Virus record (IMG/VR): IMGVR_UViG_3300040801_001703
Location: 1 to 33,909 of that record
DNA length: 33,909 nt
Strand: one strand, 5' to 3'
Source: a virus
This document shows, piece by piece, positions 6,313 through 32,938 of the stretch; the stretch's first letter is position 1; every line of letters starts with the position of its first letter. Under the pieces are notes generated by a model. It made no database searches and was not told where the DNA came from. It worked only from the letters and a program-made list of their open reading frames with translations. Position numbers and translations under genes: made by a program.

Positions 6313-9300
6313 ATGAGCCGACTCACGAGGGCGCTCGACGGCCTGAAGCAGGCGCAGGCGCAGCAGGCGCGGCGTGCGGCCGGGGCGCAGGCCTTCGACA
6401 CCTACCCGCTCGCGCCGGCGGAAGTGCCATGGGACGAGGACCGACTTCTCGTCAGCACCCGAGTGCCGCGGGGGAAGCAGGACGGGGTCGAGTACCGCGG
6501 CGGGGCCCCCAGCGATGGCGAGCGCCTGATCGTCGGCGTCGACGCACTCCGTCAGCCCGGCGGCGAGAAGGCCCTCGCGCAGAACGCGAACGTGCTCGCT
6601 ACGGACACGCTGGGCCTGCCTCGGAACCGCTACCGCAACCCGGACGCGCGCATCGCGGAGACGATCGATCAGGTCGCCCAGCAACTGGTGCGCCTGTACA
6701 GCGCGGTGCCGGAGAATGTCCGCGGCCGCACGCGGCAGTGGTACAGGGGCGCGAACCGATTCGCGAACGAGCAGGCTCGGCGCTTCAACAGGCCCCCGCA
6801 CGAGATGGCGGGCGTGCTCGCCGCGCTGTCGCCGCAGAAGGACTGGTTCCAGAACGCGGATCTCGCACGGCGCCTCGTCGAGATCAACGACCTGCACATG
6901 GACACCGTGGTCTCGCCCGAGATGGTCGCGAAGCTGCGGGACACCATCCAGAACGCGACAGTCCCGAAGGGCCGAAAGCGTCCGACTGAGATCGGCGGCG
7001 TGAGCCCGGAGCAGCTGGAGGCTTCGATCGGTACGCCGATGCGCGAGCTGCCCGCCGACCAGCAGGCCGTCGCGGTCCGCATGTTCGACGAGATGAACAA
7101 CCCGCGCGAGTATCCCGAGGTGACGCCCGAGGGCGACGTGATCGGCCTCGCCCGCGCAGGCGGCGGGAATGGCGAGCCGAAGAAGATCGCGTGGGGCTCC
7201 ATCGGCGAGATCCGCAAGGCGCTCTCGATCCTGCAGGACAGCAGTCCGGAAAACGTCAGCCGGCAGCTCGGGGGCGCGCACAAGGTCCGGAACTTCTACA
7301 ACAACATCCTCGATCCCGACGACCCCTTCAGCGTCACCATCGACACGCACGCAGTCGCGGCGGCTTTCCTGCAGCCGCTGAGCGGCAAGGCGACGGACGT
7401 GAAACGGAACCTATCCGGTGGTGATGGCTCCGGCTCCTCCGGGCCGCTCGGCCTGACGGGCACCTACCCGATCCTCGCGGACGCCTACCGGGTCGCGGCG
7501 GATGCCGTGGGCGTCTCCCCTCGCGAGATGCAGTCCATCACATGGGAAGCGATTCGCGGCGCGTTCCCCGACCACCTGAAGCGGAACAAGAAGTTCCTGA
7601 CCGCGGCCGGGCAGCTGGCGAAGGACCTGAAAGCGGGCCGCATGACGCCGGACGAGTACTTCGATGCGATCGCGGAGCTGTCGATCTCGAACGGAGGCAC
7701 GTTCTCGCCGATGTGGAGCGAGATGCGCGGCGCGATGCCGGGCGTGGCGCTCGCAGGCCTCATGACCGCCGCGATGCTGCCGGAAGATGCGGAAGCGTCG
7801 CCATTGCGGCGACTGCTGATGCCCGACGAGGATCTGCTGTACCGCGGCTCGACCACGTCGCTCGCCGATGAGCTTCAGCAGCTGGACGAGCTCGGCAATC
7901 AGCGCTCCCTGTTCTTCACGAACAGCCCGCACTACGCGAGCTACTACGCGGCCGGCGAAGCCACGGGGAGCCCGATCTCGTTCGACCCGGAGCGGGCCCC
8001 ACTGCCCGAGCGCACGGTGGCCGAGCGTGATGCGCTCCTGAACAGCATCGGCGAGGAAGCCCGCTCCCTGTCCCTGACGGACAACGAAGTGGAGTTCCTT
8101 GCGAGCGCCCGGGAGCGTCTGTCGTCGCGGCGCGGTCCGGTTCGCGATCGGCTCACGCAGAACCCGCGCTGGCAGCAGCTGCAGCAAGAGGTCATCGACG
8201 GCAACAATCCTGAGGAGTGGCTGGCGCGGACCATCGGCCTCGTCGGAGACCAGCAGATCCGAGAGAAGCCGGAGATCGCCGACCGGCTGAGGCGGCACTA
8301 CGAGCAGCTCAAGAGTCGCGACAACGCGGCCCGCTACGAAGAGATCCGGCAGATCGAGGATGCGGCGAAGCGCGAGGTCGCGGCGGAACTCGGCATCGAC
8401 CCCGCCTACTTCGAGATGGAGAACGCGCTCGATCGGCAGGGTGAGCTGTTCAACCGAGGCATGGGCGTTCCGCGGTACGCGGGCGCCCCTCAGGTCACCC
8501 CCGCTGGCGTCCGCACTGGCCGCACCCGCTGGACCGATGTCGAGACCGACATGGAGATGGCCGAGGGTGACCCGGAGTACCAGCAGCGGCTGCGCGACGA
8601 GGGCGTCGACACGCTCGCATGGAGCCCCGAGGGCCCCGGAGAGGTCGAGGGCACCCGCAACGCACCGTACGGCACCGAGCAGCTGCTGCTGCGCCCCGAC
8701 CGGCAGGTCCGGCCGATCTTCGACCCGGCAAGGCTCGCAGGCGTAGGGGGCGCAGCGGTAGGTGCCGGGATGCTCGCGCCGGAGGAGGCCGAAGCGGGAG
8801 TCGTTTCTTCCGCGCTCCGCGCGTCTCGCGGGCGCCCCGACGTGAACTCGGACACCGGCGAGCAGGCTCAGCCCGCTCTTGATATGTCCGACGCCGCGCG
8901 CATGGAGCGTGCGCGGGAGATGGGGTTTGAATACACGCGCGTGACGCGCGGCGCAGACTCTCCGCTGCAGCCGGGCAGCGAGGCGACGTGGGCGATGTTT
9001 GAGCGCAACCCCGACATCGAATACGGGGTTGACCGCCTGTCTTCGTACGGAGAACACGGCTGGCTGTCGCGTGCCGATGACGCGGTAGACGTGGAAGACA
9101 TACAGGCCGACATCGTGCGGTCCTTGCGCCGGCGCGGCCTGCAGGAAGAGTACCAAGCAACGGCTGCGAGCTTGGCGCGAGACGCTGCGCCAACGGACAT
9201 CGTTAATTCTGCGGGGCTCTGGGACTCTCCAGACTTGGTTCAGGCAGTCTACGAGGACGTGCTGGAGCCTCGCGGAATCAGTGCGGTTCGCACGCCGAAC

Positions 9301-11259
9301 GGACTTGTCCGGTTCCCTGACGATTACGGTGAATTCGCGAACACGCGCTCCGTCAACGCCGCCTTCGACCCCGCCGAGCGCGACAGCAGCGACCTTCTCG
9401 CAGGCGTGGGTGGGGCCGCAGTAGGCGCGGGCATTCTGGGCGCCGGCATGGCGCCGGAGGAGGCCGAAGCGGGAGTCGTTCCTTCCGTGCTCCGCGCTGT
9501 CGACACAACCGTTGACGCGGCGGAGGCTGCCGGCAAGGGTGCTGCTACACTTCTGGGGTCCGAAGGGCGCGCGTTCCGCACGCTCGAAAACGAGACGCTG
9601 GCGAGGGTCTACGATGAGCTCCGAGCACAAGGGCCAACGACCGGAGAGCGGGTCTTCGACGAAGTCGAGATCGGAGACGCCGACGGACTCCGAAGTCGAG
9701 GAGCTACTCCAGCTGCACGGTTTCGACTCCCCGAGCCGTATCAGGAGAGCGTTGCGCGAATCGGCCGAGCGTCGCCGGACCTGATCGAGATCTCCCCGGA
9801 CGATGCCGGGGCGCGGGTGTTCGCCGAATCGATCACCGCAGCGAAGGACGCGAATCGCTTCGGCGCCAGCGTCTACGTCTATCCCACCGACGAGTACAAG
9901 GGCATGCGCCTGTTCCTCACCGAGGACGGCGCGGCCGGCTACGCCCTGAAGCCGGATGGCGACATCGTCTCCGCATTCTCGGACGGCACGCACAAGGGCG
10001 TCGCTCAGAACATCCTGCTCCACGGCGTCGAGAACGGCGGCAAGAAGCTCGACGCCTTCGACACCGTCCTTCCCGAGATGTACTCGCAGATGGGCTTCGA
10101 TGAAGCCGCCCGCCTGCGCTGGGACGATGACGAGGCGCCTCCGGACTGGGACAAGGGGACCTTCGGTCGCTTCAACGATGGCGAGCCGGACGTGTCCTTC
10201 ATGGGGTACAGCGAAGCTCCGGCGCGCCCAGTCGAGCCGCGATACGTCGACGACTACGGGCAGGCCATGGACGCGCAGGAGGCAATGCTCCGCGCGCCTC
10301 GCGGGCGCACCGACGTGAACTGGGCGACCGGCGAGCAGGCTCAGCGGTGGACCCGCTCGCAGCTCGAACAGGGCAACTACGTGCTCGTGAATGTCCCGAC
10401 GGAGGAGCTGATCGAACGCGGGATGTCCGGGACCTTCGACGTGCGGAACCCGGAGAATCAGATCGGGGACCGCCTCTCGAAAGCGCGAGCCCGGATGGAG
10501 CGGGGCATGCCCATGGATCCGCCGGTGGTCGGCCTGACGCGCGACGGCATCGCCTTCGACGACGGCCGCCACCGCGCGCTGGCGGCGCTGGAGCTGGGGC
10601 AGGACACCATCCCCGTCATGGTCCCGCGTGACGATGCAGATCGGTTTCTCGCCCGCGTGCCGGACTCCTACCGGCGGCCTGCCGGAGAGGATCCGGGCGT
10701 CGGCGCCGCGCTCGACGAGTGGAACGCCGGCGGTGGTCAGGCGGGCGCAGTGCGCGGACCCGAGCTGGGCGCGATGGCGGGCCTCGCCGCCGCGGCACAG
10801 CAGTTCGCAGACATGCGAGGCGAGAAGGAGGGCTCGACGTGGCGGAGCTACATCGGCCGGATGCAGGACATGGGGACGAAGACGTTCGGAGCCGCGGAGA
10901 TGGCGGGGCACATCGGGTCCGGAATGATCGCGGACGCCGTGGGCGGCCTCGGTGGCATCGCCGAGCTGGTTTCCGGGTCGAGCGCCGCTGAGGCCGCTCG
11001 CCGCGTCGAGGACACGCAGAGCGCGATGATGCCTCGTGGCATGAGTCCGGCCGGGCAGGAGATCGGCATGGAGCTGCTGGGCGCGCTGGAAAAGGGCGGG
11101 CAGTACGCTCGCCGCGAGCACCCTGTGGCGACCAGCTACGTCGAGAATGTGCCCGGCTACTGGCGGGATCGCGTGGTGCCGGCGCTTCAGGAGCAGTTCG
11201 GGGCGGAGAGGGGGTCCGCGATCGCCGCCGCCCTGCGTACTGCGTCCGAGGCGTTCTGA
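6313..11259 (+). CDS. Large polyvalent protein: DUF7178-like, two ART-like, GNAT-like and ParB-like domains
   Basis: A 1648-residue modular protein with GGAGG eight bases before its ATG. Residues about 120-360 resemble a DUF7178-type region of phage polyvalent proteins (AALSPQKDWFQNADLA, then TIDTHAVAAAFLQPLS). An ADP-ribosyltransferase-like module runs from LLYRGSTTS (508-516) and FFTNSPHYASYYA to RPIFDPARLAG (about 820). A second ART-like module spans about 870-1020 (EYTRVTRG to SVNAAFDPAE). A GNAT-like module covers about 1170-1300 (GAAGYALKPDGDIVSAFSDG, GGKKLDAFDTVLPEMY). A ParB-like module covers about 1355-1446 (DDGRHRALAALELG). Gly-rich hydrophobic linkers ending in PEDAEA or PEEAEAG separate modules. 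Known polyvalent proteins are injected with phage DNA and act on host factors; that role is inferred, supported by its place between portal and scaffold. Domain calls are from motif memory. Confidence 0.75.
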   Translation: MSRLTRALDGLKQAQAQQARRAAGAQAFDTYPLAPAEVPWDEDRLLVSTRVPRGKQDGVEYRGGAPSDGERLIVGVDALRQPGGEKALAQNANVLATDTLGLPRNRYRNPDARIAETIDQVAQQLVRLYSAVPENVRGRTRQWYRGANRFANEQARRFNRPPHEMAGVLAALSPQKDWFQNADLARRLVEINDLHMDTVVSPEMVAKLRDTIQNATVPKGRKRPTEIGGVSPEQLEASIGTPMRELPADQQAVAVRMFDEMNNPREYPEVTPEGDVIGLARAGGGNGEPKKIAWGSIGEIRKALSILQDSSPENVSRQLGGAHKVRNFYNNILDPDDPFSVTIDTHAVAAAFLQPLSGKATDVKRNLSGGDGSGSSGPLGLTGTYPILADAYRVAADAVGVSPREMQSITWEAIRGAFPDHLKRNKKFLTAAGQLAKDLKAGRMTPDEYFDAIAELSISNGGTFSPMWSEMRGAMPGVALAGLMTAAMLPEDAEASPLRRLLMPDEDLLYRGSTTSLADELQQLDELGNQRSLFFTNSPHYASYYAAGEATGSPISFDPERAPLPERTVAERDALLNSIGEEARSLSLTDNEVEFLASARERLSSRRGPVRDRLTQNPRWQQLQQEVIDGNNPEEWLARTIGLVGDQQIREKPEIADRLRRHYEQLKSRDNAARYEEIRQIEDAAKREVAAELGIDPAYFEMENALDRQGELFNRGMGVPRYAGAPQVTPAGVRTGRTRWTDVETDMEMAEGDPEYQQRLRDEGVDTLAWSPEGPGEVEGTRNAPYGTEQLLLRPDRQVRPIFDPARLAGVGGAAVGAGMLAPEEAEAGVVSSALRASRGRPDVNSDTGEQAQPALDMSDAARMERAREMGFEYTRVTRGADSPLQPGSEATWAMFERNPDIEYGVDRLSSYGEHGWLSRADDAVDVEDIQADIVRSLRRRGLQEEYQATAASLARDAAPTDIVNSAGLWDSPDLVQAVYEDVLEPRGISAVRTPNGLVRFPDDYGEFANTRSVNAAFDPAERDSSDLLAGVGGAAVGAGILGAGMAPEEAEAGVVPSVLRAVDTTVDAAEAAGKGAATLLGSEGRAFRTLENETLARVYDELRAQGPTTGERVFDEVEIGDADGLRSRGATPAARFRLPEPYQESVARIGRASPDLIEISPDDAGARVFAESITAAKDANRFGASVYVYPTDEYKGMRLFLTEDGAAGYALKPDGDIVSAFSDGTHKGVAQNILLHGVENGGKKLDAFDTVLPEMYSQMGFDEAARLRWDDDEAPPDWDKGTFGRFNDGEPDVSFMGYSEAPARPVEPRYVDDYGQAMDAQEAMLRAPRGRTDVNWATGEQAQRWTRSQLEQGNYVLVNVPTEELIERGMSGTFDVRNPENQIGDRLSKARARMERGMPMDPPVVGLTRDGIAFDDGRHRALAALELGQDTIPVMVPRDDADRFLARVPDSYRRPAGEDPGVGAALDEWNAGGGQAGAVRGPELGAMAGLAAAAQQFADMRGEKEGSTWRSYIGRMQDMGTKTFGAAEMAGHIGSGMIADAVGGLGGIAELVSGSSAAEAARRVEDTQSAMMPRGMSPAGQEIGMELLGALEKGGQYARREHPVATSYVENVPGYWRDRVVPALQEQFGAERGSAIAAALRTASEAF
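8776..8871 (+). repeat. Polyvalent-protein linker, composite copy (A+B)
   Basis: This in-gene stretch encodes APEEAEAGVVSSALRASRGR followed by PDVNSDTGEQAQ. Its first part (A, 8776-8822) recurs at 9451-9497 with 45 of 47 bases identical; its second part (B, 8814-8871) recurs at 10287-10344 with 53 of 58 identical. Both spacings (675 and 1473 bases) are multiples of three, so the reading frame is kept. Confidence 0.85.
9451..9497 (+). repeat. Polyvalent-protein linker, copy of part A
   Basis: Matches 8776-8822 at 45 of 47 positions and encodes the PEEAEAG end of a Gly-rich hydrophobic segment after the second ART-like module. At protein level the similarity starts earlier, at the AGVGGAAVGAG part in both places. 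Confidence 0.85.
10287..10344 (+). repeat. Polyvalent-protein linker, copy of part B
   Basis: Matches 8814-8871 at 53 of 58 positions and encodes RAPRGRTDVN then ATGEQAQ between the GNAT-like and ParB-like modules. Copies of A and B, adjacent in the composite copy, are here separated by the GNAT-like module. Confidence 0.8.
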
Positions 11260-26668: not shown

Positions 26669-27343
26669 TCACATTCTGATGGGGGTTTTCGGGAGCGTCG
26701 TCAGGTGCTCCCGGTACTCTTCGACCAGACGGTCGAAGGATTCGAGATCGGCCCAGAGAGCTCCGATGTAGTCCTCGTTCCGCTCCGCCTCGTAGACGAT
26801 GAGATCGGACCCGTACGAAGCGAGCGCCGGCGTGTAGTAGCAGAGGTGCCACCACTCACGGCCGCTGATCGCAAGGGACCCCTGCACCTGATCCCACTGA
26901 TCGCTGGGATCCATGTCGTAGAGCACTTTCCGAAGGCTCACGGGGCTGACGAAGCACTTGTATTCGCTTCCGCCGCGCGGGTCGATCAGACCATCGCCCG
27001 AGGCGCCGAAACGGCCGCAGGGCGTCGTGATGAACCCGGCGTGCCGGATCTCCTTCCTGATGCGGAAGGCGTGCCGCTCGCGCGCGTCAGGCTCCAGTTC
27101 ATGGCCTCGGCGCATCTGCCACGTCTCGAAGCCTTCGTCCATGGGCTCGCCGCTCAGGCGCTCCACGGCAAGCCTGAAGGCGTAGTCCTTCGCGGCGGAG
27201 CTGTAGTCGCCCTTGTTCGGGCCGCTCTTCAGCCGCTTCCTCACCTCGACGAACATCGAGGCAGTGACCTTTCCGCAGCGCAGCCGGTGCCACTCCGGCG
27301 ATCCCTGCTCGGTCTCGTAGATGACCGGATCACCCTCCAGCAT
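26669..27343 (-). CDS. Lambda/YqaJ-type 5'-3' exonuclease
   Basis: The 224-residue protein has the YqaJ viral recombinase pattern: GSPEWHRLRCGKVTAS (14-29), GHELEPDARERH (80-91, Glu84), ASGDGLIDPRGGSEYKC (114-130, with Asp117, Glu127 and Lys129 as the PD-(D/E)XK catalytic set) and DQWDQVQGSLAISGREWWHL (about 147-166, the conserved Q and W). It degrades the 5' strand of dsDNA ends so that the single-strand annealing protein encoded upstream can pair homologous strands. It overlaps the small gene before it by 14 bases. Length is normal for the family. Confidence 0.9.
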   Translation of the reverse strand: MLEGDPVIYETEQGSPEWHRLRCGKVTASMFVEVRKRLKSGPNKGDYSSAAKDYAFRLAVERLSGEPMDEGFETWQMRRGHELEPDARERHAFRIRKEIRHAGFITTPCGRFGASGDGLIDPRGGSEYKCFVSPVSLRKVLYDMDPSDQWDQVQGSLAISGREWWHLCYYTPALASYGSDLIVYEAERNEDYIGALWADLESFDRLVEEYREHLTTLPKTPIRM

Positions 27344-27503
27344 CGTCGCTCTCCCCCTCGTGGCGCTCGATGACGATCATGATCCCATCGGCCACCGCGT
27401 CGAGCGCGGCAGCCGACCTGCGGCAGTCCTCGGCCATCTGGCGAGCCCATGACGCCACGCCCTCCAGCTCCTGCCGGAGGGTCGGCTTCTCCTCGCTGCT
27501 CAC
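27330..27503 (-). CDS. Small helical hypothetical protein, 57 aa
   Basis: The GTG start at 27503 overlaps the ERF-type gene stop as GTGA and has GGAGG four bases upstream; the frame is open 51 bases further upstream, but that part would overlap the ERF gene. The protein is one amphipathic helix run (EELEG-type start, ASWARQMAEDCRRSAAALDA, VADGIMIVIERH). No family recognised. It lies between the annealing protein and exonuclease genes and may be an accessory factor of the recombination pair. Confidence 0.6.
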   Translation of the reverse strand: MSSEEKPTLRQELEGVASWARQMAEDCRRSAAALDAVADGIMIVIERHEGESDDAGG

Positions 27504-28330
27504 GATGCCTCCGAGTCGGCGGCGCCTTCGCGTTCCGAGAGCCAGTGATCGCACGCCTTGAATGCCGACGCGGGGATCTCCGCGAACGACTCGGGCGGGA
27601 CTCCCTGCTTCATGGTCCTCGCGACCAGCAGCAGGAAGCGCCCCTCAGGCACCCCGGCCGCCTCGCAACGGGCCTGCAGCGCCTGCGCCTGCTCCGGCGT
27701 CACCGTGCCCCCCTTCGGCTGCGCCGCAGCGGGCTCGGCCTTCTCGACGCCTTGCTGGCGGCCATCGTCGTCCTGATCGGATGCGGCCACGCCGGCGATC
27801 CCCATCAGGGTGTACCGCTGCAGGTAGGTGACGGTCGAGCCGACCGCCTGAATCGCGTTCTTCCCGCCGCTCTGGTCAGGCGACGCATGCAGCTCGGAGT
27901 GCTCGGAGTGCCCGTCCTCGTGAGACACGATGCAGCGGACGGTGATCTTCCCCTCGGTCTGCTCCTGCTCCCACCGGAACGACAGGCCTTCGGCACCCAT
28001 GCAGAAGCCGATGGTGTCCGCGACCTCGGACAGCGGGGAGTGCCAGTAGTCGACCACGTCACCGCTGCGCGTCGTGTAGTAGACGTGCCGGCTCTTCGCC
28101 ACCGGAGGGCACGCCGCCCGGAAACGGGACATCGCCGCGACCCATGCCTTGCGGGCCGCCTCGCGCTCCTGCTGTTGCGCCAGCTCGATCAGCTTGGCGA
28201 GGGTGTCCGGGTCCATCCCGCGGTCGATTGCCTTGGCAATCAGCATATGCGGGGTGACCTGCGCCGGGGCCGGCTGTCGACGTTCCGACGGCACGACGAT
28301 TTCGCCGCCGCTCTGCTTCTCTGCTTCCAT
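27500..28330 (-). CDS. erf: ERF-family single-strand annealing protein
   Basis: The 276-residue protein carries the ERF signature near residues 157-188: NAIQAVGSTVTYLQRYTLMG followed by IAGVAASDQDDDG, a strand-helix-strand element found in P22 Erf relatives. The preceding part has ARKAWVAAMSRFRAACPP and VDYWHSPLSEVADTI, also typical. ERF proteins bind ssDNA as rings and anneal complementary strands, here probably made by the exonuclease downstream. The C-terminal third is a separate helical region (TPEQAQALQARCEAAGVPEG) for protein contacts. GGAGAGGA precedes the ATG. A promoter with a palindrome overlapping its -10 lies about 40 bases upstream. Confidence 0.88.
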   Translation of the reverse strand: MEAEKQSGGEIVVPSERRQPAPAQVTPHMLIAKAIDRGMDPDTLAKLIELAQQQEREAARKAWVAAMSRFRAACPPVAKSRHVYYTTRSGDVVDYWHSPLSEVADTIGFCMGAEGLSFRWEQEQTEGKITVRCIVSHEDGHSEHSELHASPDQSGGKNAIQAVGSTVTYLQRYTLMGIAGVAASDQDDDGRQQGVEKAEPAAAQPKGGTVTPEQAQALQARCEAAGVPEGRFLLLVARTMKQGVPPESFAEIPASAFKACDHWLSEREGAADSEAS

Positions 28331-28365: not shown

Positions 28366-28383
28366 ATTATTACACGCCCGTGT
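28366..28383 (-). promoter_or_regulatory. Early promoter with ACAC-N4-GTGT operator (site 1, before erf)
   Basis: On the minus strand ACAC-GGGC-GTGT (28383-28372) is followed at once by TAATAAT (28372-28366), a likely -10. A second inverted repeat, GGGCGTG/CACGCCC (28358-28364 and 28373-28379), surrounds the AT-rich box. No good -35 is present at 16-17 bases. Layout matches sites 2 and 3 upstream. Confidence 0.5.
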
Positions 28384-28393
28384 GCGGCGCGCG

Positions 28394-29305
28394 TCAGTAG
28401 TCGATCGAGAGCGCCGGCACCTTCTTCATGTCGATCGCATCTATCACCCGGGCCGACTGCGCCAAGCTCAACCCCGCGTGCGCCCGGAGCTGGGTCGAGA
28501 TCTCCGTCCGCACCTCTTCGCGGCGCGCCCGGTCGGCCGCCCTCCTTTCGGACTCCTTCTCCTTCCGGCTTTTCAGCTCTTCCTCGCGGCGCTCCTTCTC
28601 GGCGAGAAGCTCGGCGGCCCGCCTCTCGGCACGCTTCTCCGCCTCGGCGGCCTCGGCTTCGCGCCGGGCCCGGGCCTCGCGCTCCGCCTTCTCCCGGCGG
28701 AGCTCTTCCAGCTCGCGCTCCTGAGCCTCCGCCTCCTCCGCCTCGCGGATCCACCTTTCGAGCATCTCGATCGCTCGGATCTGCACGCTCGTGGCTTCGT
28801 TCGCGCGTTCGTGGAACGACTTCGGCGTCACCACCACATTCCGAACCTGCAGCAGCCGGCTGCGGAGATCGGCGGACGGCACGCGGGATCCGTCGGGGTT
28901 TCGATCGCTCTGGCTGGCGGCGCGCATGCCGGCGATCAGCGCTTCGATCTGCTGCTCGCGCTCGGTGCGGATCCGCTCCGCCTCGCGCACGGGCGCCATG
29001 ACGGCATCGATGGTCTGATCGATTTCGCCGACGAGGGCCTTGCCCGCCTCGTTCACCGCGGAGATCCGCGCGCGCATCTCCTCGGTCGCGCTCTTCCGGG
29101 TCCGCTCGATGTCGGCCTTCACGGTGCGGCACTGAGCCACCCAGCTGCGGAGCGGCTTCTCGCCGGCTTCTGGTGCCTCTTCGTACTTCGCGAGCACGGA
29201 GTGCTTCTCCGCGCGGATCCGGCCCACCTCGTTGTGGTACGCCAAGAAGATAGCCTCAGCCTCTGCCGGGGTCTCGTTCGTCGCGCTCTCTGCTGCGTTG
29301 GACAT
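28394..29305 (-). CDS. Coiled-coil protein, DUF1351-like, 303 aa
   Basis: The ATG at 29305 (TGATG overlap with the previous stop, GGAG/AGGA upstream) starts a 303-residue protein. Residues about 15-110 (IFLAYHNEVGRIRAEKHSVL, RTVKADIERTRKSATEEMRA, DQTIDAVMAPVREAERIRTE) resemble DUF1351-type phage proteins found beside ssDNA-annealing proteins. Residues about 170-265 are a highly charged single helix (Glu/Arg/Ala). The end, QSARVIDAIDMKKVPALSID, is also common in these. It probably serves replication or recombination, but the role is unknown. The frame is open further upstream without a credible start. Confidence 0.72.
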   Translation of the reverse strand: MSNAAESATNETPAEAEAIFLAYHNEVGRIRAEKHSVLAKYEEAPEAGEKPLRSWVAQCRTVKADIERTRKSATEEMRARISAVNEAGKALVGEIDQTIDAVMAPVREAERIRTEREQQIEALIAGMRAASQSDRNPDGSRVPSADLRSRLLQVRNVVVTPKSFHERANEATSVQIRAIEMLERWIREAEEAEAQERELEELRREKAEREARARREAEAAEAEKRAERRAAELLAEKERREEELKSRKEKESERRAADRARREEVRTEISTQLRAHAGLSLAQSARVIDAIDMKKVPALSIDY

Positions 29306-29670
29306 CAGTCCTCTCCTCGCTTCCAGACTGCAATGGGTCGACCGTGCGCTTCGGGGCGGCTGGTCGGTTCGTACCGATCGCGGACAAGACCCTCGTCGCG
29401 GATCAGCTTGTTCATGACGGCCCCGAGCACGCGGGGCTCCTCGCCGTCGAAGATGGGCAGGGACCGGCGGATGTCTTCGCTCGTCAGCTCGCCGCACGCA
29501 TCGAGAATCATGCGGCCCACTTCGACGCCGCGGCTGACGTAACTCGTCTTGCCGCGCGAGACGCGCTCCAGAGCCTCGTCTCGCGCCGCCAGACCCTTGC
29601 GACGCCCCTCGGCCTTCGGCGGGTCCTGCGGATCCATGGGGCCGCCTGCGAACAGGTCTCCGGTTCTCAT
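29305..29670 (-). CDS. Winged-helix-like hypothetical protein, 121 aa
   Basis: The start ATG at 29670 overlaps the preceding stop (ATGA); an ATG at 29685 would add five residues. Residues about 55-120 read as a winged helix: GRMILDACGELTSEDIRRSL, PRVLGAVMNKLIRDEGLV, and a wing with RPIAVWKRGE. The pattern 'xxLGAVxxxLxRxGxI....HGRxxxVW' is common among phage early proteins next to recombination genes; its binding partner is unknown. The first 45 residues are basic and disordered. Confidence 0.65.
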   Translation of the reverse strand: MRTGDLFAGGPMDPQDPPKAEGRRKGLAARDEALERVSRGKTSYVSRGVEVGRMILDACGELTSEDIRRSLPIFDGEEPRVLGAVMNKLIRDEGLVRDRYEPTSRPEAHGRPIAVWKRGED

Positions 29671-29879
29671 CGCTTCACCGCCCATGCCGCAACGCCCAGA
29701 GCCACCACGACTGCGAGCCAGTACAGCGTCGCGGCGATCGGCAGGCTGCTGCTCAGCAGCGCACCGAGGACCGCCCCGACCACTGCGCCGGCCGTGAAAT
29801 ACGCCAAGAGGCGCGGGGTGTCCGGGCCCGCGTCATGCCTGCGGCGCCCCCTTGATTGCCGTCTCTGTCGATCACCCAT
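29667..29879 (-). CDS. Small two-TM membrane protein, 70 aa
   Basis: A short Arg-rich N-terminus (GDRQRRQSRGRRRHDAG) is followed by two hydrophobic helices, LLAYFTAGAVVGAVLGALL (about 24-42) and TLYWLAVVVALGVAAWAV (about 51-68). The ATG at 29879 overlaps the previous gene by eight bases, and AGGAGGG is eight bases upstream. The topology allows a holin or membrane-stress protein; placement in the early block fits exclusion or host take-over better than lysis. No family recognised. Confidence 0.65.
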   Translation of the reverse strand: MGDRQRRQSRGRRRHDAGPDTPRLLAYFTAGAVVGAVLGALLSSSLPIAATLYWLAVVVALGVAAWAVKR

Positions 29880-30279
29880 GGATTCCGCCCTCCTCCGGCG
29901 CGGTGGTGCAGCTGTGCGGGTGCAGGTAGCGCCCCAGTTCGTAGTGCGTCCACCCACGGAGCGCCTGCGTCCGGTAGACGGTCCGGTTGCACTCCGGGCA
30001 CGCCACCGGCTCGGCCTGCCCTCGCGCGATGCGGAGCGCCATGTCTCGGAGGGTGCGCGCCCGGTCCCGGTCGGCGGTCTCGGCGGCGCCGCTGTCGGCG
30101 TACCCGGCCAGCTCCTCGATGCGCGCCGCGTCCTTGAGCATTGCTAGAGCGCGGTCGTTGCCGCGAGACATCTCCTCCAGAGAGGGCCTGCGCGGAGCCG
30201 CGTCAGCGCCGGATCGGTGCCGGGCGGCGTAGATGGCGACGAGTCTCTCGTGACGCTGTCTGGATGCTTCGTTGCTCAT
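29872..30279 (-). CDS. Hypothetical protein with zinc-finger-like C-terminus, 135 aa
   Basis: The start overlaps the previous stop (ATGA) and GGGAG is seven bases upstream. The first 90 residues are helical and charged (ASRQRHERLVAIYAARHRSG, RALAMLKDAARIEELAG). The end holds a likely zinc site: CPECNRTVYRTQALRGWTHY, then ELGRYLHPHSC, giving two Cys, two His (HPH) and a final Cys. Function unknown; the metal site suggests nucleic-acid or protein binding. Confidence 0.65.
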   Translation of the reverse strand: MSNEASRQRHERLVAIYAARHRSGADAAPRRPSLEEMSRGNDRALAMLKDAARIEELAGYADSGAAETADRDRARTLRDMALRIARGQAEPVACPECNRTVYRTQALRGWTHYELGRYLHPHSCTTAPEEGGIHG

Positions 30280-30530
30280 GCCGGGGCTCCCATGTCGATC
30301 TCAGTGATGCGGAACGGGGCCCCGTCCTGCTCCTCGCAGAGCGTGACTTCGTCGGGGCCTGTGATCAGCCAGACGTGCAGCAGTTCGGAGCGGGTGCAGT
30401 AGTGGGCGGCGTCGATGCGGCCCTTCACGGTGCCGGACGGGGAGTCGATGCGGACGCAGGCGTCATCGGCGGCCATGCGGTTCAGGATGCGGGCGATGCC
30501 GCTGCGGGACGTGCTCGTAAGATCGATCAT
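30276..30530 (-). CDS. Hypothetical protein, first gene of an early transcript, 84 aa
   Basis: The ATG follows an ideal GGAGGA site and is the first start after a promoter, an operator and a 5' hairpin. The protein starts MIDLTSTSRSGIARILNRMA and continues with beta-like segments (VRIDSPSGTVKGRIDA, LHVWLITGPDEVTLCEEQDG). No family recognised. Its stop overlaps the next start as ATGA, so it leads the gene chain at 30276-29305. Confidence 0.65.
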   Translation of the reverse strand: MIDLTSTSRSGIARILNRMAADDACVRIDSPSGTVKGRIDAAHYCTRSELLHVWLITGPDEVTLCEEQDGAPFRITEIDMGAPA

Positions 30531-30543
30531 GGCAGTTTCCTCC

Positions 30544-30569
30544 GGGTGCCGGCGTCATTGCCGGCACCC
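30544..30569 (-). promoter_or_regulatory. 5' leader hairpin before the gene at 30530
   Basis: GGGTGCCGGC and GCCGGCACCC form a perfect 10-bp stem with a six-base loop. On the minus strand it lies just after the -10 of site 2, so the stem starts close to the expected 5' end of the mRNA, and the GGAGGA ribosome site follows directly. It may protect the 5' end or affect translation. Confidence 0.6.
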
Positions 30570-30572
30570 ACA

Positions 30573-30600
30573 ATCATACACGAGAGTGTACCCGACGCAA
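30573..30600 (-). promoter_or_regulatory. Early promoter with ACAC-N4-GTGT operator (site 2)
   Basis: On the minus strand: TTGCGT (30600-30595) as -35, 16-base spacer, TATGAT (30578-30573) as -10. The palindrome ACAC-TCTC-GTGT (30589-30578), flanked by T and A for a 14-base dyad, fills the spacer and touches the -10. The ACTTGCG text at the -35 is shared with site 3. Confidence 0.6.
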
Positions 30601-30607
30601 GTTGTTC

Positions 30608-31162
30608 TCAGGCAACCTTGAACGCGGTGCTGCAGACCTCAGGGATCAGCTGCGCCCCGCCCTCGATCGCCACGTTCATCAGCGTCTCGTGGCTCCACTG
30701 GACGCCAAGGTCGTGGAGGACCATGACCCCGCGCTGCAGCGACAGCCCTCCGTAGCGGTGGTAGAGCCCGAGCATCACTGAGACGAAATAGGCGTCGTGC
30801 CGGTGCTTATTCCCCGCAATCTGGTGAGCCAGCTCGTGGAGCAGCGTCTTCGTATTCGACTGCCACTTCGAAATCGTGATCGTGCCGTTGTGGTACGAGG
30901 AGCTACGGAAGGCGTCGGATCGGGCCGCCTTGATCAGCGGCGAGGGTGCCAAGGCGTAGAGGCGGTAGTCCGACCAGATCCGACCAGCCAACCGCTGCAT
31001 GCTATCGATGGTTTCGGCAGTACTCAGAGGCAGGCGCATGTGCTGCTCCGCGTCGTAGCACCTCTGGCGCTGCTCATCCACGCTCGGCGCGACCGTGGGG
31101 GCGAGCAGCATCGGGCGCTTCGCGCAAAGGGTCTGCGAGATCTTGATCCAGCTGTTCTTCAT
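30608..31162 (-). CDS. HELAH metallopeptidase-like protein, 184 aa
   Basis: The zinc-binding motif HELAH (109-113) is preceded by a strand and Lys/Thr-rich turn (ISKWQSNTKTLL) and followed by HRHDAYFVSVMLGLYHRYGG with a possible third ligand at His120 or His122. This layout fits the SprT/WLM-like or ArdC-associated peptidase group. Residues 51-100 are a helical region with a DYRLYALAPSP segment. Phage HExxH proteins can target host factors or other phage proteins; the substrate is unknown. The ATG at 31162 has GGAG eight bases upstream, and a promoter with a perfect TATAAT lies just upstream. The open frame extends to about 31831, but this part has no start with a ribosome site and overlaps the next gene. 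Confidence 0.68.
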   Translation of the reverse strand: MKNSWIKISQTLCAKRPMLLAPTVAPSVDEQRQRCYDAEQHMRLPLSTAETIDSMQRLAGRIWSDYRLYALAPSPLIKAARSDAFRSSSYHNGTITISKWQSNTKTLLHELAHQIAGNKHRHDAYFVSVMLGLYHRYGGLSLQRGVMVLHDLGVQWSHETLMNVAIEGGAQLIPEVCSTAFKVA

Positions 31163-31178
31163 AGCGGTGACTCCATCA

Positions 31179-31200
31179 GGGCCGGCGGAAGTGCCGACCC
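31179..31200 (-). promoter_or_regulatory. 5' leader hairpin before the HELAH gene
   Basis: GGGTCGGC and GCCGGCCC (minus strand) form an eight-base-pair stem with one G-U and a six-base loop. The stem begins six bases after the -10 box of site 3, at the expected transcript start, and a GGAG ribosome site follows after four bases. Same layout as at 30544-30569. Confidence 0.5.
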
Positions 31201-31205
31201 CTTCA

Positions 31206-31233
31206 ATTATACACAAACGTGTTCGTCGCGCAA
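31206..31233 (-). promoter_or_regulatory. Early promoter with ACAC-N4-GTGT operator (site 3)
   Basis: On the minus strand: TTGCGC (31233-31228), 16-base spacer, then a perfect TATAAT (31211-31206). ACAC-GTTT-GTGT (31222-31211) occupies the spacer next to the -10. The TAA stop of the nuclease-like gene overlaps the -10, so the promoter is inside the end of that gene. Confidence 0.65.
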
Positions 31234-31668
31234 GTCTCGGCAGATGACAGCGAAGCGGCTCAAGGGGATCATCGCGAGCGGTTCTTCCTTGTCCCGATCC
31301 GCGCGGCCGCCCCATTCCACGCTGAGCCACGAGGGCCGAATCTCGGGAGGAACCCGGATTGCTCGGATGTGCGGATCGGCGTCCGGCCCGGAGATCGCAA
31401 GGACGGTGGGGAAGCCTTCCTGCACGTATTGAACGCCGCGGCGCCACTTGCTCCACGAGAGCATGATCGTGGGGTAGAGCTTCGCCCGCTGTTTCACCTC
31501 GATCACGCCGACCACCTCGCGCGGCGGCTTGATCACGCACCAGTCCCACTCGTAGTCCATCGTCATGTGCTTCACCTTCAGGCCTGTGGCGCCTCGCGCA
31601 GCAAGGTACTGCCGAAGGATGCGGCGCTCGTTCTTCAGGTCCTCTTCGGTCTGGTAGATCTTCCCCAT
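31207..31668 (-). CDS. PD-(D/E)XK nuclease-like protein, 153 aa
   Basis: GGAGG lies directly before the ATG at 31668. The protein has the pattern of small PD-(D/E)XK nucleases: a helix with an acidic residue (EEDLKNERRILRQYLAARG), YEWDWCVI with Asp42, VVGVIEVKQR with Glu57 and Lys59, then TIMLSWSKWRRGVQYVQEGF and a strand PTVLAISG. The spacing D-x14-E-x-K fits VRR-NUC or resolvase-like folds. The role could be DNA repair, recombination or host DNA attack; it is only inferred. In-frame codons upstream (to 31806) lack a ribosome site. The gene ends within the promoter of the next gene. Confidence 0.65.
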   Translation of the reverse strand: MGKIYQTEEDLKNERRILRQYLAARGATGLKVKHMTMDYEWDWCVIKPPREVVGVIEVKQRAKLYPTIMLSWSKWRRGVQYVQEGFPTVLAISGPDADPHIRAIRVPPEIRPSWLSVEWGGRADRDKEEPLAMIPLSRFAVICRDLRDEHVCV

Positions 31669-31946
31669 GGATCCTCCGCGCACAGTTCGCCCTCTTTCCC
31701 CGTGGAGGCGGTCCGGCCTCGCACGCCTGCAGTCGCAGGACACCTTCCGGTGCGGTACTCGATGTTCCCCACGCTTTCGCGTCAGCGGATCCCTTTCCGC
31801 CGGCATCGGCTCTGCTCGAAGCAGACTCCACGGGGCCGGGTCGACAGGGCAGGTCGGAGCCCGGACTTGTTCTTCGGCAGTTCGGTGTCGACTTCAGTGA
31901 GCGGCAGGGATCGACGGCCCTCTCGAACTTGCAGCGGCTCAGGCTG

Positions 31947-32021
31947 CAGAGAGCATGGCGTCAGGCGGAGGGGTATACTGAGCCGGCGCCACCCGGTCCT
32001 CTCCCCACGCGATGCTCTCTG
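31947..32021. other. Structured element: 14/15-bp stem enclosing a 45-base interior
   Basis: CAGAGAGCAT (31947-31956) pairs perfectly with ATGCTCTCTG (32012-32021); after one G-G mismatch GCGT (31958-31961) pairs with ACGC (32007-32010). The interior has smaller possible stems (GGAG with CTCC, CCGG with CCGG). Both strands would give a similar fold. It looks like a leader RNA, an antitermination-type element or a protein-binding site. Confidence 0.5.
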
Positions 32022-32030
32022 GGTGGTGCA

Positions 32031-32062
32031 GGCGGCCCGACCTTGGCAGGGGTCGGGCCGCC
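32031..32062 (-). terminator. 12-bp hairpin after the regulator operon
   Basis: GGCGGCCCGACC (32031-32042) and GGTCGGGCCGCC (32051-32062) form a perfect stem with an eight-base loop. It lies seven bases after the stop of the minus-strand gene at 32070. There is no clear T-tract on the minus strand (TGCACC follows), so termination may be partial or factor-dependent. Confidence 0.6.
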
Positions 32063-32069
32063 ACCCTTC

Positions 32070-32363
32070 TCACTTTCCGGTGTTGAGGTCCCGAGGCATC
32101 GACCTCGCGACTTCGATCTCCGGCTCCTGAGGCAGCGCGGGCGCGGCCGCCACCACCACACTGAAGTTCCAGCCGGGCATGTTGCCGTGCGTCGCGTTGA
32201 TCGAGTACAGGATCATGCCGTCTGCGTGGCCGTCGTTGATCGCTGCCTGAACGCGATCGGCGCGCCGTCGCAGCGCCAGCTCCAGCAGCTGCTGGCCGAG
32301 GTACTGCTCGACCACGTCTTCCGGTGCAATCTCGCGCTCTTCTCCCGGGTTTCCGTTGTTCAT
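32070..32363 (-). CDS. Hypothetical protein paired with the Cro-like regulator, 97 aa
   Basis: The ATG at 32363 overlaps the regulator stop as ATGA, with GGAG eight bases upstream, so the two are co-expressed. The protein has a helical start (EDVVEQYLGQQLLELALRRR), an alpha-beta part (ADGMILYSINATHGNMPGWN, FSVVVAAAPA) and a disordered end. No family recognised. It could be a co-regulator or an unrelated early protein. A strong hairpin follows directly. Confidence 0.65.
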   Translation of the reverse strand: MNNGNPGEEREIAPEDVVEQYLGQQLLELALRRRADRVQAAINDGHADGMILYSINATHGNMPGWNFSVVVAAAPALPQEPEIEVARSMPRDLNTGK

Positions 32364-32569
32364 GCTGATCGCTCCATGTTGACGAGATCCTCGGTCCGGA
32401 GCTTCCCTCCGCTCTTCGAGACGATCTCGTAGTGCCGGGCGGCGGGGATTCCGCGCGCCTTCCAATTCGTCAGCGTCTGCGGGCTGACGTTGAGCTTCGT
32501 GCGCGCCTTGGCGCGACCGCCGAGCCGCTCGATCACTTCGTCGAAGGTCAGAGCCTTCCGCTTGTTCAT
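32360..32569 (-). CDS. Cro/YdaS-like HTH regulator
   Basis: The 69-residue protein is almost entirely a helix-turn-helix domain: LTFDEVIERLGGRAKARTKL, then NVSPQTLTNWKARGIPAARH, like the Cro/YdaS group where a short domain with 'GGxxxLAxxLxVxxxxVxxWxxRGxIP' binds phage operators. GAGG lies eight bases before the ATG. It is the first gene transcribed leftwards from a divergent promoter region that carries an operator-like palindrome; it is the best candidate for binding the ACAC-N4-GTGT sites. No CI-type repressor with a protease domain is in the window. Confidence 0.78.
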   Translation of the reverse strand: MNKRKALTFDEVIERLGGRAKARTKLNVSPQTLTNWKARGIPAARHYEIVSKSGGKLRTEDLVNMERSA

Positions 32570-32601
32570 GTGCGCGTCCTCGCTGTCAGATGACGGCGGG
32601 C

Positions 32602-32645
32602 AGTATAAACGCGCGTTGACCCGATGCGCGAGAGTCGTGTACGTT
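32602..32645. promoter_or_regulatory. Divergent early promoter region with operator-like palindrome (site 4)
   Basis: For the minus strand TATACT (32607-32602) is a good -10 in front of the regulator gene; its -35 is poor. For the plus strand TTGACC (32616-32621) is a good -35, with TACGTT 18 bases later (32640-32645) a weak -10. The perfect palindrome AACGCGCGTT (32608-32617) touches the minus -10 and the plus -35, so one bound protein could affect both. AAAC-N4-GTTG resembles ACAC-N4-GTGT of sites 1-3. Confidence 0.5.
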
Positions 32646-32680: not shown

Positions 32681-32938
32681 ATGAGTGCCGAACTGAACGA
32701 CTTCGAGACCCGTGCGCGAATCTGCCTGCTGGCCGGTCCGCCGATGTCGCCCTGCGAGGGCGGCAAGCCGGGCAGTGAGCCATGCCCGTCACGCCAGATC
32801 TGCGAGCTGAACCAGCTCGCCTGCCCGAACTACTACCGCTACGTCACCGAGGGGTCGCGATCGCTGCGTGGACAGCCCGCGAAGCGCTCTCGACGCTGGT
32901 ACGACCTGACGATGACCGACTTGGAGGAAGGCCTGTGA
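32681..32938 (+). CDS. Cys-rich small early protein, 85 aa
   Basis: ATG 32681 has a good GAGGAGA site seven bases upstream. Six Cys residues are spread as RICLLAG, SPCEGG, EPCPSRQICELNQLACPNYY, suggesting a zinc- or disulfide-stabilised core, followed by YRYVTEG and RRWYDLTMTDLEE. Small proteins with a 'CxxxxxxLACxxYxxYVxxG' pattern are common as first genes of phage early operons opposite the regulator; their role is unknown. The stop overlaps the next GTG as GTGA. Confidence 0.7.
   Translation: MSAELNDFETRARICLLAGPPMSPCEGGKPGSEPCPSRQICELNQLACPNYYRYVTEGSRSLRGQPAKRSRRWYDLTMTDLEEGL

Follow-up and report, generated by a model that had tools for sequence, protein, structure and literature searches.

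Operator-like palindromes on four putative early promoters of a P22-like phage, and a Cro-like protein that may act on them

The operators of the phages N15 and phiKO2 are 16 bp long and have the layout T-A-(N)10-T-A (PMC4997575). CB, the prophage repressor of phiKO2, occupies five operators, whereas the Cro protein of this phage binds only OR3 (PMC4997575). The mycobacteriophages L5 and Bxb1 have 13-bp stoperators, which block elongation; these are oriented with transcription and for the most part do not lie at promoters (PMC6550527). A literature search for dispersed inverted repeats of the phiC31 type returned nothing usable.

The DNA analysed here, called the window, is the full 33,909 bases of a viral record (Table 1). 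A search for an end repeat in the record found none, and the record may represent only part of a phage genome. Judged by its genes, the window belongs to a small and largely unannotated P22-like tailed phage. The small terminase is Sf6-type, the large terminase is 41-43% identical to those of the Manatee Spring phages, the portal is matched across podoviruses and a major head protein is present. Searches with the ERF, metallopeptidase, portal and terminase proteins found no close phage relatives in the collections searched, and repeated ACAC-N4/5-GTGT was absent from the distant relatives. An Rfam scan of the window gave no match. A single plus-strand ORF of 1648 aa (6313-11259) is located between the portal and scaffold genes, and far exceeds the length of the gene at the same position in the Manatee Spring relatives.

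A run of minus-strand genes extends from 32569 to 26141 and encodes the Cro/YdaS-like regulator, a PDDEXK nuclease, a metallopeptidase-like protein, an ERF recombinase and a YqaJ exonuclease. The Pfam matches of the metallopeptidase-like protein are weak and below cut-off (WLM 0.005, SprT-like 0.03). The 84-aa gene is the first in a short row of genes on the same strand, and the 85-aa gene divergent from cro sits where relatives carry a CI-like gene.

Table 1. Positions of the genes and operator-like sites discussed in the text
Feature	Position	Strand	Remarks
IMG/VR record IMGVR_UViG_3300040801_001703	1-33,909		window; 33,909 bases, 68% G+C
YqaJ exonuclease	26669-27343		follows ERF gene; PF09588 E 2e-10
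ERF-type ssDNA-annealing recombinase	27500..28330	-	downstream of site 1; PF04404 E 4e-15, phrog_155
Site 1, operator-like TTACAC-GCCC-GTGTGC	28370..28385		-10 AATAAT 28366-28371 minus, weak -35
84-aa protein, no family match	30276..30530	-	downstream of site 2; ORF call
Site 2, operator-like ATACAC-GAGA-GTGTAC	30576..30591		between -35 TTGCGT and -10 TATGAT (30573-30578), minus
WLM/SprT-like metallopeptidase-like protein, 184 aa	30608..31162	-	downstream of site 3
PDDEXK endonuclease-like gene	31207..31668	-	PF24579 E 1e-12
Site 3, operator-like ATACAC-AAAC-GTGTTC	31209..31224		between -35 TTGCGC and -10 TATAAT (31206-31211), minus
Cro/YdaS-like regulator, 69 aa	32360..32569	-	recognition helix VSPQTLTNWKARGIP
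Site 4, operator-like ATAAAC-GCGC-GTTGAC	32605..32620		overlaps cro -10 TATACT 32602-32607 minus
85-aa gene divergent from cro	32681..32938	+	no family match

An earlier note, made from the sequence of the window, had placed the 12-base palindrome ACACNNNNGTGT (ACAC-N4-GTGT) at 28372-28383, 30578-30589 and 31211-31222, each copy touching a -10 box on the minus strand, and had proposed a search for it across the genome. The palindrome is found exactly at these positions, each copy does abut or overlap a minus-strand -10 box, and the window-wide search returned these three copies only. The same arms at other gap lengths from 0 to 15 do not occur in the window. The hexamers TATAAT, TATGAT and AATAAT are each found once in the whole record, counting both strands, and these single copies are the -10 boxes of sites 3, 2 and 1. 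The text ACTTGCG is common to sites 2 and 3, as the note had also observed, and TTGCG(T/C)-16-TAT(G/A)AT occurs on the minus strand at these two sites only. A scanner for promoter and terminator consensus sequences, which applies a strict hexamer rule, misses all four promoters.

Read on the minus strand, the sites are TCAAC-GCGC-GTTTATACT (site 4), AACAC-GTTT-GTGTATAAT (site 3), TACAC-TCTC-GTGTATGAT (site 2) and GCACAC-GGGC-GTGTAATAAT (site 1). Their register relative to the -10 box is identical at sites 2-4, and the -10 box of site 1 is shifted by one base; outside the core, sites 1, 3 and 4 are imperfect. Each promoter has a single site, and the four together span 4.2 kb. Site 3 falls inside the last codons of the PDDEXK gene. 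Site 4 also overlaps the -35 TTGACC (32616-32621, plus) of a divergent rightward promoter, and since it covers this element as well as the cro -10, a single dimer would block both divergent promoters.

Further features were observed around these promoters. A lone GTGTA half-site (32637-32641, plus) abuts TACGTT, the presumed -10 of the rightward promoter; the junction is that of the four operators, but the left arm is absent. The predicted transcripts of site 2 (30531-30569, minus) and site 3 (31163-31200, minus) begin with 5'-terminal GC-rich hairpins just before the ribosome site, GGGTGCCGGC-AATGAC-GCCGGCACCC and GGGTCGGC-ACTTCC-GCCGGCCC, respectively, whereas the leader of site 1 has no such hairpin.

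The note had named frequent occurrence by chance as a result that would speak against its proposal, and on this point the outcome is divided. The exact form was observed three times against a mean of 0.18 in 100 dinucleotide shuffles, and three or more copies were seen in 0/100. Allowing one mismatch gave 12 matches against 6.5 expected, so that the exact form alone stands out. In a look-elsewhere test over all 4+4 inverted arms with gaps of 0-12, however, several families had more extreme counts. The count of three is thus unexceptional among all such palindromes and by itself proves little, and it was dropped as sole evidence. The sequence-based case for operators rests on promoter position and family evidence.

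Local dinucleotide shuffles gave p values of 0.0007, 0.0013 and 0.0027 for the gaps holding sites 1, 2 and 3, and <0.0007 for that of site 4. The gap ahead of the PDDEXK gene (31669-32069), which served as control, gave p 0.68 and contains no operator-like site. This 400-bp gap is also free of annotated genes. It holds a plus-strand TATACT at 31974, after which comes a very stable structure, with a folding energy of -64 kcal/mol (z -2.9) for the stretch 31960-32075; this is possibly a small RNA. A scan of viral_contigs for TTG-N8-ACAC-N4-GTGTATNAT returned 41 stretches, about the number roughly expected, and the genes surveyed around approximately 20 of them revealed no common regulator. This lead was dropped.

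The 69-aa regulator was compared with known families and folds. It matches phrog_409 (E 4e-9), and scores 26.0 bits against Pfam P22_Cro (curated cut-off 30.2) and 28.7 bits against YdaS_toxin (curated cut-off 30). The AlphaFold model has a pLDDT of 86.6, with helices at 9-15, 19-26, 30-39, 43-53 and 59-63. The top nine fold matches found by Foldseek in the PDB are all Cro proteins, the closest being those of Xfaso-1, N15, XPH1 and P22, with E-values of only 0.01-0.3 and probabilities of 0.99-1.00. The model predicts a five-helix, all-alpha Cro fold with a helix-turn-helix, of the P22/N15/Xfaso-1 type.

A homologue search was started from the sequence of this protein, and was therefore independent of the palindrome. 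The relatives adjoin CI-like genes, and their control regions contain palindromes of the form TA[A/C]AC-N5-GT[G/T]TA. The TACAC...GTGTA form is found in L005 and L058, the two homologues nearest to the window's protein in recognition helix. In L005 (IMGVR_UViG_3300003375_000132), the nearest by helix (SQQVLTNWKARG versus SPQTLTNWKARG in the window), TTGACG...TACAC-TTTAA-GTGTATGAT lies just upstream of the start of the Cro-like gene, which is divergent from a CI-like HTH gene. L058 (helix SPQVVTNWKSRG) has ATACAC-ACGAA-GTGTAT, AAAC-AAACA-GTTT and TAAAC-TCGGT-GTTTATAAT, and homologues with PMAVTQW or PMAVSQW helices have TAAAC-N5-GTTTA. The half-sites are separated by 5 bp in the closest-helix homologues and by 4 bp in the window. 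The way in which the window's sites run into the -10 box recurs in L058 and L061, as a GTKTATRAT junction at cro.

An unguided search of 16 homologues returned AAAC-N5-GTTT as the top shared palindrome, with 11 occurrences at 6 loci; the maximum under the null was 4 loci, reached in 8 of 200 shuffles. In those records whose operator placement was checked, the sites are gathered into two groups around the regulator genes, separated by 0.8-2 kb in the manner of OL and OR. Such an operator was found upstream in 1/30 further genomic homologues with other recognition helices. A comparison drawing on L005/L061, L058, L052, L060, L068 and L069 paired (P/Q)Q..TNW helices with TACAC, and PM..TQW or PM..SQW helices with TAAAC. 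The half-site of the operator seems to vary together with the sequence of the recognition helix, which would tie the one to the other within a single Cro family.

A half-site matrix was built from 12 homologue operators, picked by eye from the listed palindromes and including none from the window, and was slid over the window at gaps of 0-12. Over all gaps the best two hits were site 2 and site 4, with 17.1 bits each and a gap of 4. At gap 4 the four sites rank 1-4, and the next hit scores 9.8; in 60 Markov-shuffled windows, gap-4 hits at that level had a mean of 0.25 and a maximum of 2. Site 4 was still first when the matrix was made from TAAAC-type homologues alone. The note had called the fourth palindrome, AACGCGCGTT at 32608-32617, related to the other three. 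By letters alone this did not hold, as 5/8 of the fixed letters of ACAC-N4-GTGT are matched, but the homologue-derived matrix does group it with them.

Taken together, we consider it probable, at roughly two chances in three, that one lambdoid repressor of the P22/N15 Cro/CI type, most likely the 69-aa Cro-like protein, has these four palindromes as its operators. A repressor dimer would bind TA(C/A)AC-N4-GT(G/T)TA at four minus-strand early promoters, where it would lie across the -10 box. Through site 4 it would act on cro, through site 3 on the metallopeptidase-like gene, through site 2 on the row headed by the 84-aa gene and through site 1 on the ERF/YqaJ recombination genes. Once bound, the repressor would bar RNA polymerase from the promoters and silence all these targets together, and without it the four promoters would fire soon after infection. 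What the analysis shows directly is the sites with their register and enrichment, the match to half-sites of the homologues and the predicted Cro fold; that the promoters are active, that a protein binds them, which protein this is and that the result is repression are what we infer here. The note had suggested one repressor controlling several early transcripts rather than one long transcript. That several early promoters share an operator, and that cro is one of the targets, is supported: the type of half-site, the overlap with the -10 box and the place beside the regulator all recur in homologous phages. The opposition to one long transcript is less clear-cut, since the targets all lie on one strand with short gaps, and the internal promoters may supplement a long transcript that reads through from the cro promoter.

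A bolder version of this proposal, which we hold as tentative and on balance unlikely, is a phage without CI in which a single autoregulated Cro-type protein serves as the global early-gene switch. Four early promoters would then each have one operator of N15 geometry, one of them dedicated to ERF/YqaJ, and dispersed single operators would replace the clustered OL/OR design.

The strongest of the competing explanations, though on balance unlikely, is that the main binder at the several sites is a CI/CB-type prophage repressor encoded off the contig, the Cro-like protein binding one or two sites (e.g. site 4) as a lytic repressor. As phiKO2 Cro binds OR3 only and CB binds five operators (PMC4997575), one Cro acting on four sites is not assured. 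The CI-like gene divergent from cro in relatives, and a record that lacks an end repeat and may be a fragment, fit this explanation as well. The CI position beside cro is however taken by the unrelated 85-aa gene, no integrase or CI-like gene was noticed in the gene list, and a scan of early genes of this fragment for a CI-like gene gave no match.

Host control of phage genes by LexA is known, and the sites could be boxes for a host transcription factor, e.g. a SOS-type repressor, that times the phage recombination genes. ERF and YqaJ are DNA-repair-like genes, and a palindrome with a 4-bp gap across the promoter spacer suits such a factor. Nevertheless, the half-site prediction came from phage Cro homologues and used no host data, and the top-ranking site is on the cro promoter, and we regard host control as very improbable. 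Antitoxin operators of the HigA type were also considered as source of the motif, and the literature search gave nothing decisive. Equally improbable, and already disfavoured, is that AT-rich promoter islands in a G+C-rich genome happen to hold palindromes: the corrected count and the near-expected number of unrelated viral stretches with a similar motif at promoter-like places would allow it, but composition-keeping local shuffles still give p <=0.0027 at all four gaps, the register is equal or within one base throughout, and the matrix predicted the four sites independently.

The four sites offer a testable operator set for this phage. Furthermore, the dispersed sites, if real, would give the recombination genes their own repressor-controlled promoters, so that they would not depend solely on a long PL-type transcript.

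Several known systems resemble this arrangement in part. The one-repressor, many-site organisation of L5 and Bxb1, with sites spread along the phage genome (PMC6550527), is similar in outline, whereas the sites in the window are symmetric and all four are on -10 boxes. The P22- and lambda-like CI/Cro switches of L058, L061, L060, L068 and L069 share the homologous Cro-like protein and the TA(A/C)AC...GT(T/G)TA half-sites, and in L058, L060 and L061 one right operator arm runs into the cro -10. In these switches the operators are clustered, with arms 5 bp apart, and a CI-like gene lies alongside. In the window the arms are 4 bp apart, the operators are single and scattered, and no CI-like gene lies alongside. 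As in a lambda-type CI/Cro region, site 4 overlaps the cro promoter and a divergent one. The gene divergent from cro is nevertheless 85 aa long and without family match, and there are no two or three clustered operators at OR/OL. A cI gene may lie elsewhere, on a missing part of the genome, and the locus is not classed here among the lambda-type immunity regions.

N15 and phiKO2 are similar in several respects. Their T-A-(N)10-T-A spacing equals the TACAC-N4-GTGTA geometry of the window, where it is complete at site 2, with sites 1, 3 and 4 keeping TA on the left arm only. The all-alpha Cro fold is shared, N15 Cro being among the top PDB matches, and the sites occur at more than one promoter. 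The N15/phiKO2 sites are however confined to OR and OL, beside cB and before repA, whereas in the window single sites precede cro and three other early genes, and a search turned up no CB-like gene among the early genes scanned. The arrangement proposed for the four promoters would be a variation on the well-known lambda-type switch.
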